Source: Chitinibacter sp. FCG-7 (GTDB lineage Bacteria; Pseudomonadota; Gammaproteobacteria; Burkholderiales; Chitinibacteraceae). From it: 64,000 nucleotides of DNA. The notes below the pieces were generated by a model. The model saw only the letters and a program-made list of their open reading frames with translations. It had not been told where the DNA came from and did no database searches. The DNA lies in the NCBI RefSeq assembly GCF_040047665.1, contig NZ_CP157355.1:1984001-2048000 (forward strand), read 5' to 3'. The position numbers and the translations under genes are program-made. Position 1 is the first letter of the stretch. Every line of letters begins with the position of its first letter. This document shows positions 9,194 through 61,975 of this stretch, one piece after another.

Positions 9194-9220
9194 AACAACG
9201 GGGCTTTCGCCCCGTTGTTA
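9194..9220 (+). terminator. Ecotin terminator hairpin, left copy of a 27 bp duplication
   Basis: AACAACGGGG/CCCCGTTGTT stem just past the ecotin stop codon. An identical 27-base copy lies at 9366-9392, on the other side of the dispersed repeat. Confidence 0.75.
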
Positions 9221-9247
9221 GGCTGTAAATAAAGTGAGAATCCGTGA

Positions 9248-9350
9248 TTTTCAAGTCTCGGCAAAGCCGATCCTAAGCAATAAGGCCTTGATGTTTTATT
9301 CCCACCCCTCCCGTCCCCTCCTTGAGGGGAGCCTCGCTTCGCGAGTGGGG
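9248..9350 (+). repeat. Dispersed intergenic repeat, copy A
   Basis: Non-coding repeat with internal small palindromes (TCGGCAAAGCCGA, CCTTGAGGGG, CTCGCTTCGCGAG). Its last 60 bases (9291-9350) are identical to the reverse complement of 40487-40546, and the rest is similar. It lies between two perfect copies of the ecotin terminator hairpin. No coding capacity. Confidence 0.85.
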
Positions 9351-9365
9351 TTTATCATTTGATAT

Positions 9366-9392
9366 AACAACGGGGCTTTCGCCCCGTTGTTA
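9366..9392 (-). terminator. Second copy of the ecotin hairpin; would serve the AGCS gene
   Basis: Identical to 9194-9220. Here the palindrome extends outward by five more bases on each side (GATAT...ATATC), giving a 15-pair stem. It lies just beyond the stop codon of the convergent symporter gene. Confidence 0.7.
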
Positions 9393-24433: not shown

Positions 24434-24591
24434 ATAACCTGAGACGCGTTATGCGATGAAGGTGCAATCGACCCGATTGCGAATTGTTGAATAAAGAGAT
24501 GAACCGGAAGCATGCGAATGCGACTGATGAAAGATTACTTCTTCTATTGATTTCGAGTAGTTGTTTGAAAAAACAGCGACTCACCCAGTTT

Positions 24592-24708
24592 TGTCTGGTG
24601 ACCATAGCGAGGTGGTCCCACTCCTTCCCATCCCGAACAGGACAGTGAAACGCCTCAGCGCCGATGATAGTGCGGATTGCCCGTGTGAAAGTAGGTCATT
24701 GCCAGACT
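24592..24708 (+). rRNA. rrf: 5S ribosomal RNA, copy 1
   Basis: About 117 bases with GTGGTCCCAC and GTGAAACGCC cores. Terminal helix begins TGTCTGG and ends CCAGAC. Followed by its own hairpin. Confidence 0.96.
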
Positions 24709-24818: not shown

Positions 24819-24935
24819 TGTTTGGTGACCATAGCGAGGTGGTCCCACTCCTTCCCATCCCGAACAGGACAGTGAAACGCCTCAGCGCCGATGATAGTGC
24901 GGATTGCCCGTGTGAAAGTAGGTCATTGCCAAACT
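24819..24935 (+). rRNA. rrf: 5S ribosomal RNA, copy 2 (tandem)
   Basis: Near-identical tandem duplicate of the first 5S, including part of the flanks. Terminal helix is TGTTTGG...CCAAAC: relative to copy 1 a C-G pair became T-A on both strands, so pairing is kept. This covariation implies both copies are under selection. Confidence 0.95.
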
Positions 24936-38993: not shown

Positions 38994-40430
38994 GTGGCCG
39001 CTTCTCAAAACGTTCAAAACAGTTTCAAAGACTTTCACGTAGCCGATATCAGCCTTGCCGCCTGGGGCCGCAAAGAGCTGAACATTGCCGAAACCGAAAT
39101 GCCGGGTCTGATGACCGTGCGCGACGAATACAAAGCGCAGCAGCCACTCAAAGGCGCGCGCATTGCCGGTTCATTGCACATGACCATCCAGACTGGCGTG
39201 TTGATCGAAGCACTGCAAGCACTCGGTGCTGAAGTGCGCTGGGCGTCGTGCAATATTTTCTCGACGCAAGATCACGCCGCAGCGGCGATTGCCCTGAATG
39301 GCCACAACGGCCAAGGCACGCCAGTATTCGCATTCAAAGGCGAATCGCTGGAAGAATACTGGCAATTCACGCACCAGATCTTCGAATGGCCCAATGGTGA
39401 ACACGCGAACATGATTCTGGATGATGGCGGCGATGCAACCTTGCTGCTGCATCTGGGTGCGCGCGCTGAAACCGATCTGAGCCTCGTTGCCAATCCGACC
39501 AACGAAGAAGAAACCGTGTTGTACGCGGCGATCAAGGCGCAAATCGCCAAAGATCCAACATGGTACTCAACACGTTTGGCTGCGATCAAAGGCGTGACTG
39601 AAGAAACTACGACTGGTGTACATCGTTTGTATCAAATGCACGAGCAAGGCAAACTGGCTTTCCCGGCAATTAACGTCAACGACTCGGTGACCAAGTCCAA
39701 ATTCGACAATCTGTACGGCTGCCGCGAGTCTCTGGTTGATTCGATCAAACGCGCGACCGACGTAATGGTAGCGGGTAAAGTGGCGCTGGTATTGGGTTAC
39801 GGCGACGTGGGTAAAGGTTGTGCGCAATCATTGCGTGGCCTGGGCGCGACCGTGATGGTGACCGAGATCGACCCGATTTGCGCGTTGCAAGCAGCAATGG
39901 AAGGCTACCGCGTGGTGACGATCGACGACGTGGCTGACCAAGTGGATATCTTCGTAACGACGACCGGTAACGTTAGCGTGATCGCGCACGAACACCTCGT
40001 TCGCATGCGTAACAACGCGATCGTGTGCAATATCGGTCACTTCGATTCTGAAATCCAAGTTGCCAGCCTGCGTCAATACGAGTGGGACAATATCAAGCCA
40101 CAAGTCGATCATATCGTCTTCCCGGACGGCAAACGCATTATCCTGCTGGCCGAAGGTCGCTTGGTGAATCTGGGCTGCGGTACAGGTCATCCATCATTCG
40201 TGATGTCAAACTCGTTTGCGAATCAAGTGTTGGCGCAAATCGAGTTGTTCACCAAGCTGGATCAATACCCGGTTGGCGTGTACGTGTTGCCTAAGCATCT
40301 GGACGAAATGGTTGCGCGTCTGCACCTGAAGAAAATCGGCGCGAAGCTGACGGTGTTGACCGATGAGCAAGCCGCCTACATCGGCGTACCGAAAGAAGGT
40401 CCTTACAAGCCTGCACACTACCGCTACTAA
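38994..40430 (+). CDS. ahcY: Adenosylhomocysteinase
   Basis: 478 residues from GTG 38994, with GGAG eight bases upstream. Hydrolyses SAH to adenosine and homocysteine. Motifs: [43 protein letters not shown] loop [14 protein letters not shown] and the C-terminal [12 protein letters not shown]. The GTG start and long leader fit control by the SAH riboswitch. Completes the SAM cycle with metK nearby. Confidence 0.97.
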
Positions 40431-40450
40431 TCGACTCGCTTTTTAAATCA

Positions 40451-40471
40451 AAACGCCCCTTGTGGGCGTTT
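40451..40471 (+). terminator. ahcY terminator hairpin, left copy of a 21 bp duplication
   Basis: AAACGCCCCTTGTGGGCGTTT, an eight- or nine-pair stem, lies 20 bases past the ahcY stop. An identical copy is at 40633-40653. Confidence 0.75.
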
Positions 40472-40486
40472 CTGATTGATGACAAG

Positions 40487-40603
40487 CCCCACTCGCGAAG
40501 CGAGGCTCCCCTCAAGGAGGGGACGGGAGGGGTGGGAATAAAACATAAAGGCTGCGAATTCAAAGTCTTGTTTCCTAGGCTCGGCTTTGCCGAGACTTGA
40601 AAA
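40487..40603 (-). repeat. Dispersed intergenic repeat, copy B
   Basis: Reverse-orientation copy of the repeat at 9248-9350; 40487-40546 is identical over 60 bases to the reverse complement of 9291-9350. It too lies between two perfect copies of a terminator hairpin. Copy B is about 14 bases longer in its middle. Confidence 0.85.
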
Positions 40604-40632
40604 ATGTCAGAACCCACTTTGTCAGCAGCCTG

Positions 40633-40660
40633 AAACGCCCCTTGTGGGCGTTTTTGCTTT
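40633..40660 (+). terminator. Second copy of the ahcY hairpin, with T tail
   Basis: Same 21 bases as 40451-40471 followed by TTGCTTT. This copy has the better T tail, so it may be the original 3' half. Confidence 0.75.
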
Positions 40661-40710
40661 TTGGCGTGTCTGGAGCCAAACTGGAAAGCCACATTGTGAG
40701 TGGTCTCAGT

Positions 40711-40983
40711 ATGAACTCAAACTATGTCCCGATTGCCTGCGATATTTATGATTATCTGGAAATTGCCGCCATGCATCGCGAGCCTTTGCGCATCGTGCTG
40801 CACAATGGCGCGGTATTTGAGGCGCAGGCTTGCAATGTGCTTGTGCGTGAACATATTGAGTATTTTGAAGTCAATTGTGCAGGTGTGCAGCGGCAGATCC
40901 GCCTTGATGAAATCAAGACGATAGAGTCAATTGCGTCTCCGCCGCACTTTGCACGTATCAGCATCAGCCCCCAACCCGAGTAA
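40711..40983 (+). CDS. rof: Rof-family Rho-binding antiterminator
   Basis: 90 residues from ATG 40711. YVPIACDIYDYLEIAAMHRE matches the Rof opening, and LHNGAVFEAQACNVLVREHIEYFEV and IRLDEIKTIESI continue the Sm-like barrel. Rof (YaeO) binds the Rho primary RNA site and blocks termination. The frame extends upstream to 40597 but only through terminator and repeat DNA. Sixteen bases before the next gene. Confidence 0.85.
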   Translation: MNSNYVPIACDIYDYLEIAAMHREPLRIVLHNGAVFEAQACNVLVREHIEYFEVNCAGVQRQIRLDEIKTIESIASPPHFARISISPQPE

Positions 40984-40998
40984 AGCTAAAGGATTGCC

Positions 40999-41817
40999 AT
41001 GAAGATCGATACCCGTCGTGATTTTCTCAAGATCAGTCTGGCCAGCGGTTTTGCGCTGGCGGTGCAGCCGGTGGCTGCAAGTACGATTCAAACCGATAGT
41101 GAAGGCTTGCTGGCGGGCGAAATCCGCATTGGCGATATGCCGGGCTATCGGGCGCAGCCAGCGGGCACATCCGCTGCTTTGCCGACCGTGATTGTGATTC
41201 AGGAGATTTTCGGCGTTCACGAACATATTCAGGATTTATGCCGCCGTCTGGCCAAGCAGGGTTATCTGGCGATTGCGCCCGAGCTGTATTACCGGCAAGG
41301 CGATCCACGGACTTATACCGATACCAATGAGCTGGTGAAAAATCTGGTTAGCCAGGTGCCGGATGCACAAGTGATGAGCGATCTTGATCAGGTGGCACAG
41401 TGGGCGGCCAGTCATGGTGGGGATGCCAATCGTCTGGCGGTGACCGGCTTTTGCTGGGGCGGACGCATTACCTGGCTGTATGCCGCGCACAATCCGAAAT
41501 TGAAAGCCGGGGTAGCCTGGTATGGCCGATTGATCGGGCAGGCCAGCGCCAATACGCCCAAACAGCCGATTGATGTCGCGCGGGAACTCAAAGCACCCGT
41601 ACTCGGCTTGTATGCCGGGCAGGATAAAGGTATTTCGCTCGATAGTGTTGAGCAGATGAAAGCCGCACTCAAGCAGCAGCGCCAGCCTTTTGGCATGTCG
41701 GTCTATGAATCGGCCACGCACGGCTTTAACGCCGACTACCGGCCTAGCTATCATGAGGCGGCAGCGCGCGACGCGTGGGAGAGCATGCTCAAATGGTTCA
41801 GGCAGTTTGGTGTTTAA
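40999..41817 (+). CDS. Dienelactone hydrolase-family protein, Tat-exported
   Basis: 272 residues. N-terminal DTRRDFLKISLASGFALAV is a twin-arginine signal. The alpha/beta hydrolase triad is Cys in TGFCWGGR, Asp in YAGQDKG and His in ESATHGFN, as in dienelactone hydrolases. Substrate unknown; many relatives are general carboxymethylenebutenolidase-like. TAAAGGA precedes the ATG; downstream of rof. Confidence 0.9.
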   Translation: MKIDTRRDFLKISLASGFALAVQPVAASTIQTDSEGLLAGEIRIGDMPGYRAQPAGTSAALPTVIVIQEIFGVHEHIQDLCRRLAKQGYLAIAPELYYRQGDPRTYTDTNELVKNLVSQVPDAQVMSDLDQVAQWAASHGGDANRLAVTGFCWGGRITWLYAAHNPKLKAGVAWYGRLIGQASANTPKQPIDVARELKAPVLGLYAGQDKGISLDSVEQMKAALKQQRQPFGMSVYESATHGFNADYRPSYHEAAARDAWESMLKWFRQFGV

Positions 41818-41928
41818 GCGTTAAGATGATAGCACCTTGGCTTCACCCTACTGACACGACGGTGTCAGTAGGGGGCTGGCATGCTGTGGGTACTGCAATC
41901 GGCAGTGATTTTCTCAAGGAGAAATACC

Positions 41929-42291
41929 ATGCATGCACTGAACTGGTTTGAAATTCCTGTAGTTGATCTGGCGCGCGCCATCTCATTTTACGAGCAACTG
42001 CTGGCCAGCACGCTGCAGCGCACCCAGTGTGGTGGCGAGCGGGTGCTGCTGCCGCATCAGCCTGGTGCGGTGGGTGGCGAGCTGACAAAAACCGACGGAG
42101 TAAGCCCAGCAGCAGGCGGCGTTTTGCCTTATCTGAACGCCAATGGTCAGCTTGATGTGTTGCTTGAGCGCCTGCAAACAATGGGCGCGCAGATTGAGCT
42201 GCCCAAAACCGAGATTTCACCTGAAATCGGCTCGATTGCCATTTTCATCGACAGCGAAGGCAACCGCATCGGTTTGCACTCCGAGCCATGA
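41929..42291 (+). CDS. VOC-family (glyoxalase-fold) protein
   Basis: 120 residues from ATG 41929, with AAGGAGAA seven bases upstream. MHALNWFEIPVVDLARAISFYEQLL is the standard first half of the fold, and GSIAIFIDSEGNRIGLHSEP the second. Relatives are called YdjK/extradiol-like or bleomycin-resistance-like, but activity here is unknown. It stands just before a WYL regulator, which is often adjacent and may control it. Confidence 0.87.
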   Translation: MHALNWFEIPVVDLARAISFYEQLLASTLQRTQCGGERVLLPHQPGAVGGELTKTDGVSPAAGGVLPYLNANGQLDVLLERLQTMGAQIELPKTEISPEIGSIAIFIDSEGNRIGLHSEP

Positions 42292-61553: not shown

Positions 61554-61629
61554 TGGTTGCGGGAATAGGACTCGAACCTATGACCTTCGGGTTATGAGCC
61601 CGACGAGCTGCCAACTGCTCCATCCCGCG
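61554..61629 (-). tRNA. Initiator tRNA-Met (CAT), copy 3 in order of transcription
   Basis: 76 bases with CCA. Starts CGCGGGA, with the initiator C1-A72 mismatch and GGGCTCATAACCC anticodon arm. T stem is ATAGG...CCTAT, whereas the other two copies have ACAGG...CCTGT: a compensated change. Confidence 0.96.
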
Positions 61630-61718
61630 TCTGTTTGCTATTTATTGGTCGACGCATCCAATAAATTCCCAGTTTCTATCATCAACGTCACAAGAAAATG
61701 ATTGGAAACTGGCGGTTT

Positions 61719-61794
61719 TGGTTGCGGGAACAGGACTCGAACCTGTGACCTTCGGGTTATGAGCCCGACGAGCTGCCAACTGCTCCATCCCGCG
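61719..61794 (-). tRNA. Initiator tRNA-Met (CAT), copy 2
   Basis: 76 bases with CCA; same body as copy 1 (61900-61975), T stem ACAGG...CCTGT. Confidence 0.96.
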
Positions 61795-61899
61795 TCTGTA
61801 CTTGGCGATCAGTATTGCTACTGAGAAAAACCACTTGCTGCGTCACACATTGTCACAGCGACTAAGTTGCACATCGAAGCGATTTTTGAGGAATTTGTC

Positions 61900-61975
61900 T
61901 GGTTGCGGGAACAGGACTCGAACCTGTGACCTTCGGGTTATGAGCCCGACGAGCTGCCAACTGCTCCATCCCGCG
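61900..61975 (-). tRNA. Initiator tRNA-Met (CAT), copy 1
   Basis: 76 bases with CCA; first in the transcript. The three genes are separated by 89-105 bases of unlike sequence. Confidence 0.96.

Follow-up and report, generated by a model that had tools for sequence, protein, structure and literature searches.

Transposases normally generate target duplications of near-fixed length, the two cuts being spaced by the geometry of the protein. Group IIC introns insert beside intrinsic-terminator stem-loops, a likeness to the element described here, from which they differ in being RNA-based, in having no inverted ends and in that they are not known to leave a hairpin duplication. In the IS1182 family of insertion sequences (NCBIfam NF033551, which includes IS1272 and ISBspe1-like elements), some members have palindromic targets (Siguier et al., as cited in passages of PMC4923244 and PMC5678879). 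According to the corresponding passages of Wan 2017 (PMC5678879), IS1272 replaces a hairpin without duplication, and duplication of the whole hairpin was drawn there as hypothetical pathway b. IS1272 and TnSha1 insert in hairpins, some of them confirmed terminators, with partial deletion and no duplication (Furi 2016, excerpts of PMC4923244).

The locus studied here resembles IS1272 and TnSha1, as presented in those parts of PMC5678879 and PMC4923244, in its link to the IS1182 family, in its hairpin or terminator targets and in the lack of a primary target sequence, but whereas IS1272 and TnSha1 delete part or all of the hairpin, here the hairpin is duplicated. Its full-length relatives belong to the IS1182 family by protein profile, while the element in the window has no transposase gene of its own and the clade concerned duplicates the hairpin. 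Like Correia, Chunjie and other bacterial MITEs (PMC10969869, in excerpt), it is short and structured, with inverted ends and target repeats; the excerpted text of that review names no terminator hairpin as a target, and the term IS1182 is absent from the review. SPRITE, in the same excerpts of PMC10969869, is also a small repeat with a terminator link, but it resembles a terminator itself, whereas here the terminator is that of a host gene. Among the matches listed for open-licence papers, we found no report of whole-terminator-hairpin duplication by an IS1182 clade or by its MITEs. ISfinder may list long direct repeats for single IS1182 members. The palindromic or hairpin targets of IS1182 members are already known; duplication of the whole hairpin and the MITEs that go with it, for which we found no description, are apparently new.

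The window, a 64-kb stretch of DNA, comprises positions 1984001-2048000 of a 3.58-Mb single-contig genome, called the own genome below. Two copies of the element lie in it, of which copy B has the following features:

38994..40430, plus strand: gene with the hit terminator, tentatively ahcY (478-aa open frame)
40451..40471, no strand: left-hand terminator hairpin downstream of the putative ahcY (target duplication), equal to 40633-40653 and single in G001, G003, G004 and G005
40472..40632, plus strand: MITE copy B, 161 bp, absent at the orthologous site of four same-genus genomes
40472..40490, plus strand: left terminal inverted repeat CTGATTGATGACAAGCCCC, 17/19 to the family consensus CAGATTGATGACAAACCCC
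40492..40504, plus strand: internal hairpin CTCGC-GAA-GCGAG, from sequence and predicted fold
40508..40522, plus strand: internal hairpin CCCCTC-AAG-GAGGGG, from sequence and predicted fold
40580..40594, plus strand: internal hairpin CTCGGC-TTT-GCCGAG, from sequence and predicted fold
40614..40632, minus strand: right terminal inverted repeat, reading inward CAGGCTGCTGACAAAGTGG, 13-16/19 to the transposase-5′-side end of eight full-length elements
40633..40653, no strand: right copy of the terminator hairpin (target duplication), T-run retained

The preliminary description had recorded the hairpin at 40451-40471 and again at 40633-40653, together with an inverted match between 40487-40546 and 9291-9350, and both observations were confirmed. 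The two hairpins are identical copies of the 21-mer AAACGCCCCTTGTGGGCGTTT, with no further occurrence within the window, and the inverted match is exact over 60 bases, extending on neither side; the element unit (40472-40632) is larger than this match. The inverted ends are imperfect and have the general form CAGRYTGNTGACAAA. No open frame of at least 80 aa lies wholly within copy B, and two mechanical frames cross it. With its 161 bp, no transposase frame inside, many copies, inverted ends in common with an autonomous element (see below) and a target site duplication with a corresponding empty site, copy B has the properties of a MITE.

For the empty site, the ahcY region was compared with same-genus genomes and the downstream stretch was then read. 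Four of the five other genomes (G001, G003, G004, and G005) have a single hairpin and no element at this site, with the 3′ end of the putative ahcY conserved beside it; in the fifth, G002, the region downstream of ahcY differs. The flanks of copy B share 90 and 95% identity with G001 on the two sides, and the G001 site reads AAATCA-AAACGCCCCTTGTGGGCGTTT-TTGC, that is, the filled site minus the element and one hairpin. Comparison of filled and empty sites identifies copy B as an insertion into a predicted transcription terminator, with the whole hairpin left on both sides. Two terminators in element-free strains, the arrangement that would have told against an insertion, were looked for in the four relatives and none was found. 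The view that the duplication is a property of the target and not of the element agrees with the single hairpin in four of five relatives and with hairpins that differ between sites.

Copy A lies in the opposite orientation within a different hairpin pair:

9194..9220, no strand: left hairpin of copy A, 27 bases equal to 9366-9392, of other sequence than that of copy B
9220..9366, minus strand: MITE copy A, older, partly decayed and with approximate ends, an insertion in common with G001
9366..9392, no strand: right hairpin of copy A, identical to 9194-9220

As had been proposed, this hairpin is unlike that of copy B, with 27 instead of 21 bases and a different sequence. The insertion is also present in G001 (92% identity across the whole query), where one of the two hairpins has decayed (L099), and no empty site was found, flank matches outside G001 being partial only. 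Copy A is the older event of the two.

Related sequences occur at 24 BLAST places in the own genome, some of them partial and two of them pieces of one copy; since the genome searches scored a limited set of candidates in each genome, the counts of MITE copies are minima. Copies were gathered from the genus and its relatives, and the direct repeat abutting both ends was given an ungapped score, after leaving out BLAST matches that started beyond position 20 or ended before 120 of the query, matches with a repeated 70-base core, and the pattern loci L025-L054. A flanking direct repeat scoring at least 10 was found in 39 of 61 distinct copies, against 7 of 1500 control pairs that combined the left flank of one copy with the right flank of another, and two of these seven passing pairs were orthologous insertions. 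The 61 copies are not all independent because orthologous insertions are among them (e.g., L013/L104, L015/L099). Of the 16 copies scored in the own genome, 9 passed; two of the 16 are of a second sequence type described below. Each of the 39 repeats folds into a hairpin in at least one of its two copies, mostly foot to foot, and the sequences are site-specific. The idea of a terminator-targeting element, raised in the preliminary description from two sites, is supported by this recurring layout with differing hairpins and by the empty sites.

Among the 22 copies below the threshold, L004, L006, and L010 have diverged or decayed hairpins by eye, L007 has only an 11-bp A/T-rich repeat and no hairpin, and at least L016, L019, L111, L113, and L117 are of the second sequence type, in which the MITE ends are absent. 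The 18-bp repeat of L074 forms a weak hairpin. The repeat and the palindrome do not always coincide; in L098, for example, the palindrome continues past the repeat, and repeat length correlates weakly with the maximal palindrome span (r = 0.34, 26 MITE copies). This value is low because A/T tracts carry the pairing beyond the cut points, and we therefore describe the target as a hairpin plus a short A:T foot and not as a maximal palindrome. Between the left and right hairpins of the 39 copies, differences affect 30 of 594 stem positions and 27 of 156 loop positions, a pattern to be expected if both hairpins remain useful. In 7 of the 61 rows (L013 and L104 being orthologous), a T-rich run after the left hairpin replaces the first bases of the left end, which under our interpretation would rebuild a terminator at that hairpin.

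The second sequence type (L016, L017, L019-L021, L111, L113, L119) corresponds to the MITE interior without its ends and duplications. By eye, copies differ in both sides of a stem that surrounds its 3′ half (e.g., GAGGCGG/CCGCC, GTGCCGAG/CTCGGCAC), and the sequence sometimes lies near a gene stop codon. It may be a structured 3′-end element and the source of the MITE interior.

A suggestion made with the first observations was that a transposase with similar ends be sought. In the own genome, we found no match to the transposase of the hairpin-duplicating clade (see below) and no DUF772 gene, and an IS1182 family search gave one partial match only, to an IS5-like gene. Its PF01609 genes, one IS5-like and one IS4-like, were considered as candidates and neither has MITE ends by eye. 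An end-pattern search of the own genome with at most three mismatches gave 402 matches against 75 in the control, and the 30 loci read from these were all MITE ends or apparent chance matches. The MITE family looks stranded in the own genome now, because no transposase of this clade is found there. Two same-genus genomes, G002 and G005, contain IS1182-family elements above the family cut-off with ends CAGRCTGTGTAAAAAC, which by eye have a 4-bp repeat and no hairpin duplication; the repeat is GGTC in three of the four same-genus copies viewed and GGCC/GACC in the fourth. Since the ends of these elements differ from those of the MITE and the own genome has no DUF772 gene, sequence collections were searched for the end itself.

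CACTTTGTCWGCAGCCTG occurs in 63 stretches of named bacterial genomes, including ones from Chitinibacter tainanensis and Chitinibacter sp. GC72; L218 and L215 show the same filled sites as loci of G004 and G001, which makes Chitinibacter the very probable genus. Hairpin abutment was assessed in 62 of them, the remaining one having too little flank. In 22 of the 62, a hairpin (stem score 7 or higher) lay within 3 bases of the end, compared with 2.0% of 3100 random positions from the same loci, and many of the 40 stretches without an abutting hairpin look like chance matches in genes. By eye, elements of the same layout occur in Aquitalea, Chromobacterium, and Pseudogulbenkiania. Elements with unrelated interiors were found as well: one of 163 bp with an exact 23-bp hairpin repeat in an Eubacteriales bin (L193), one of 165 bp with an inexact 20-bp repeat in Terasakiella (L209), and a three-fold array with paired hairpins in a bacterial bin (L199). 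The same terminal motif is seen in intergenic repeats at L233, L235, L236, L221 (a Nitrospirae bin), L199, and L238, several of them beside hairpins, with interiors such as CATTGCGAGCGAAGCGAAGCAA and GTCATTCTGAGCGAAGCGAAG; at L233 the two flanking hairpins differ. The repeats of the Nitrospirae bin, L199 and L238 may represent this type of MITE outside the phylum of the own genome, and a search with four interior strings of these cross-phylum repeats found no paper.

Viral contigs contained the end pattern in 19 stretches, one of them with a complete element of 1596 bp (L268) that has both MITE-type ends, the hairpin repeat AGCCACATAGTGGCT and a gene for a 479-aa protein. The transposase sought was thereby found: this protein scores 494 bits against the NCBIfam IS1182 profile (cut-off 270) and carries the Pfam domains DUF772 and DDE_Tnp_1_6. 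The family profile was applied to the L268 protein, and the other proteins of the hairpin set were placed by their 45-92% identity to it.

Further full-length elements came from tblastn of plasmids (15 loci fetched among 40 matches listed, of 2,864 records) and from 399 genomes of the window's own order, of which 104 had a match at any distance; G215 has at least four copies at 59% identity. At 19 of the 26 loci analyzed, exact direct repeats containing a hairpin flank the element, with lengths of 15, 16, 18, 19, 20 (five loci), 22, 22, 24, 25 (three loci), 27, 28, 28, and 30 bp, and these loci span Gammaproteobacteria, Alphaproteobacteria, Bacilli, and the own order. The repeats start with A and end with T in 18 of 19 cases, with exactly one A:T pair at the foot of the stem in 12 of 19. 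At 17 of 19 sites there are at least five A in the 7 bases before the repeat or at least five T in the 7 bases after it, and with a threshold of four this holds for all 19. Hairpin deletion without target duplication, as in IS1272-type insertion, was found neither at these 19 loci nor at copy B. At L303-L305 (G150), three hairpins are shuffled among six flanks, each occurring twice and one pair differing by 1 base, a cyclic exchange that records recombination among the copies. At L309 the two hairpins differ from each other, and L306, L307, and L308 yielded no complete element. L271 and L272 lack convincing ends because their matches are partial.

Uninterrupted relatives of three of these sites were recovered. 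For the element on a B. subtilis plasmid, the joined flanks with one hairpin equal four other Bacillus plasmids at 100% (440/440 bases) and match a fifth at 99.5%. The Salinivibrio and Rhizobium cases have two such relatives each: those of the former match along the whole length, at 90 and 78%, and those of the latter along 84-85% of it. Several elements (e.g., L270, L300, L310, L313, L315) have further strong hairpins immediately internal to their inverted ends (e.g., AACCCCGTG...CACGGGGTT), conserved in place and variable in sequence; the MITE has CCCC-hairpins at the corresponding place.

A maximum-likelihood tree places the 22 transposases from hairpin-type loci, including those of the exchanged L303-L305 and of L309, on one side of a branch with support 100/99 and 17 others on the opposite side (long-branch warnings for L323, L274, and L164). 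Proteins had entered the hairpin set on the basis of their similarity to that of L268 (45-92% identity, others <33%), and for 6 of the 17 other rows (L163, L164, L274, L279, L280, L282) a duplication was either not found or not analyzed, so the tree is evidence of a single clade that has this habit and not of its absence elsewhere. The consensus left MITE end matches the transposase-3′-side end of eight full-length elements at 16-19 of 19 positions and the ends of two other IS1182 clades at 11-12 of 19. Matching the two ends side for side clearly beats the swapped reading in five of the eight elements and is nearly or fully tied with it in three (L302, L303, L318). The other IS1182 clades, with different ends (L158-L162, L181, L276-L278, L286, L291, L295), have repeats of 4 or 5 bp, mostly GGCC or GGTC, with GCCG in L276 and ATGCA in L278. 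The flanks of L161 form a clear palindrome around the short repeat, those of others less so, and by analogy 4- or 5-bp repeats within a palindrome would resemble pathway c of Wan 2017.

We consider it very likely that the MITE is a non-autonomous passenger of one IS1182 clade, with CAGRYTGNTGACAAA ends inserted at the feet of terminator hairpins and the hairpin duplicated. The sequence comparisons above show that the element was inserted, that the duplication is local, that the ends are common to MITE and full-length elements, which family the transposase belongs to and, for both kinds of element, that empty sites exist. Movement of the MITE in trans by a transposase of this clade, none of which is found in the own genome, is inferred. 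The anatomy of a hairpin-duplicating element is well supported at the level of sequence, and the chemistry is proposed as follows. The transposase would pair both CAGRYTGNTGACAAA ends and join each of them, one per strand, to the 5′ foot of the hairpin, which would presumably be extruded as a cruciform when attacked; gap filling or repair would then copy the stem-loop to both sides. As the duplication would begin and end at the hairpin feet, its length would vary with the hairpin (15 to 30 bp). This two-fold variation of the stagger with the target suggests that the folded hairpin brings the feet together. With moderate confidence, we favor the view that this widespread clade has no fixed stagger, that the extruded terminator hairpin sets the duplication length, and that same-ended MITEs with unrelated interiors, in several phyla, were spread by the same rule. 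If this is true, hairpin removal by IS1272, the 4-bp repeats (perhaps at palindrome centers) and hairpin duplication would be three outcomes of one structure-guided reaction.

The same element and transposase might instead read the target as duplex DNA, a dimer sensing palindromic half-sites and the junction between A/T tract and G+C-rich stem, with flexible spacing and without any extruded hairpin. We regard this as a tentative alternative. Repeats bounded by A and T where the A-tract meets the stem (18/19) and palindromes exceeding the cut points at some sites would fit it, but the two-fold range of the stagger (15-30 bp) at hairpins of different sequence argues against it, as does the action of other IS1182 members on hairpins in another way (passages of PMC5678879 and PMC4923244). 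It is very improbable that another IS1182 clade, for example that with ends CAGRCTGTGTAAAAAC, moved the MITE: G002 and G005 show that such elements occur in the genus, and their ends have CAG.CTG in common with the MITE, but these ends match those of the MITE at only 11-12 of 19 positions and, by eye, are accompanied by a 4-bp repeat without hairpin duplication.

Two further alternatives lie outside the IS1182 family. Spread as a REP/BIME-type palindromic repeat by a RAYT (Y1 tyrosine) transposase, a link also suggested at the outset, is very improbable. The interior of the element is palindromic and Y1 genes do exist in the own genome, which contributes two of the 20 Y1 matches found in four of six genomes of the genus, but at the eight of these 20 loci that were fetched, including both of the own genome, no element was present within 1.5-kb flanks or up to the contig end. 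Long inverted repeats at the termini and long direct repeats of the target also speak against it, and the full-length elements that share these ends carry an IS1182 transposase gene. REP/RAYT systems are not known to make a target duplication, contrary to the 21-bp duplication at copy B. That two terminators of neighboring genes arose independently, or that a simple local duplication came to enclose a repeat by accident, has next to no probability; intrinsic terminators may be tandem, but the single hairpin in four relatives refutes this for copy B, and the same layout recurs with different hairpins at many sites. Under the preferred reading, in which an IS1182-clade transposase acts at the hairpin feet, duplications of 15 to 30 bp that contain the hairpin make structure-guided targeting by a DDE-type enzyme directly testable, since the element, its end sequence and a series of naturally filled and empty sites are defined. 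Landing in terminators may be a safe-harbor strategy, as a hairpin remains for each neighboring gene. The signature CAGRYTGNTGACAAA beside a duplicated terminator may also help to recognize unexplained intergenic repeats.

Several minor observations were made along the way. An IS4-like element of the own genome with ends TAATGCCGTTCACTTAAG (L085:1150-2345, beside a tsaD-like gene) lies, by eye, inside a hairpin of terminator type (AAAAAAACCGCCTGTGTGGCGGTTTTTTT), where GCCTGTGTGGC is apparently repeated over 11 bp; terminators of this genome would then be hit in a second way. An Rfam search over 39000-42000 gave two matches, both sub-threshold, one of which is a weak full-length match to anti-hemB at 40446-40531 on the minus strand (19.2 bits, gathering threshold 49.5, E 0.26); anti-hemB-like motifs perhaps include MITE ends beside terminators. 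Elsewhere in the window, the near-identical repeats of more than 100 bp at 24590-24700 and 24820-24930 look by eye like two 5S rRNA genes, and the long repeats at 61554-61975 are due to three tRNA-Met genes (anticodon CAT) in tandem.
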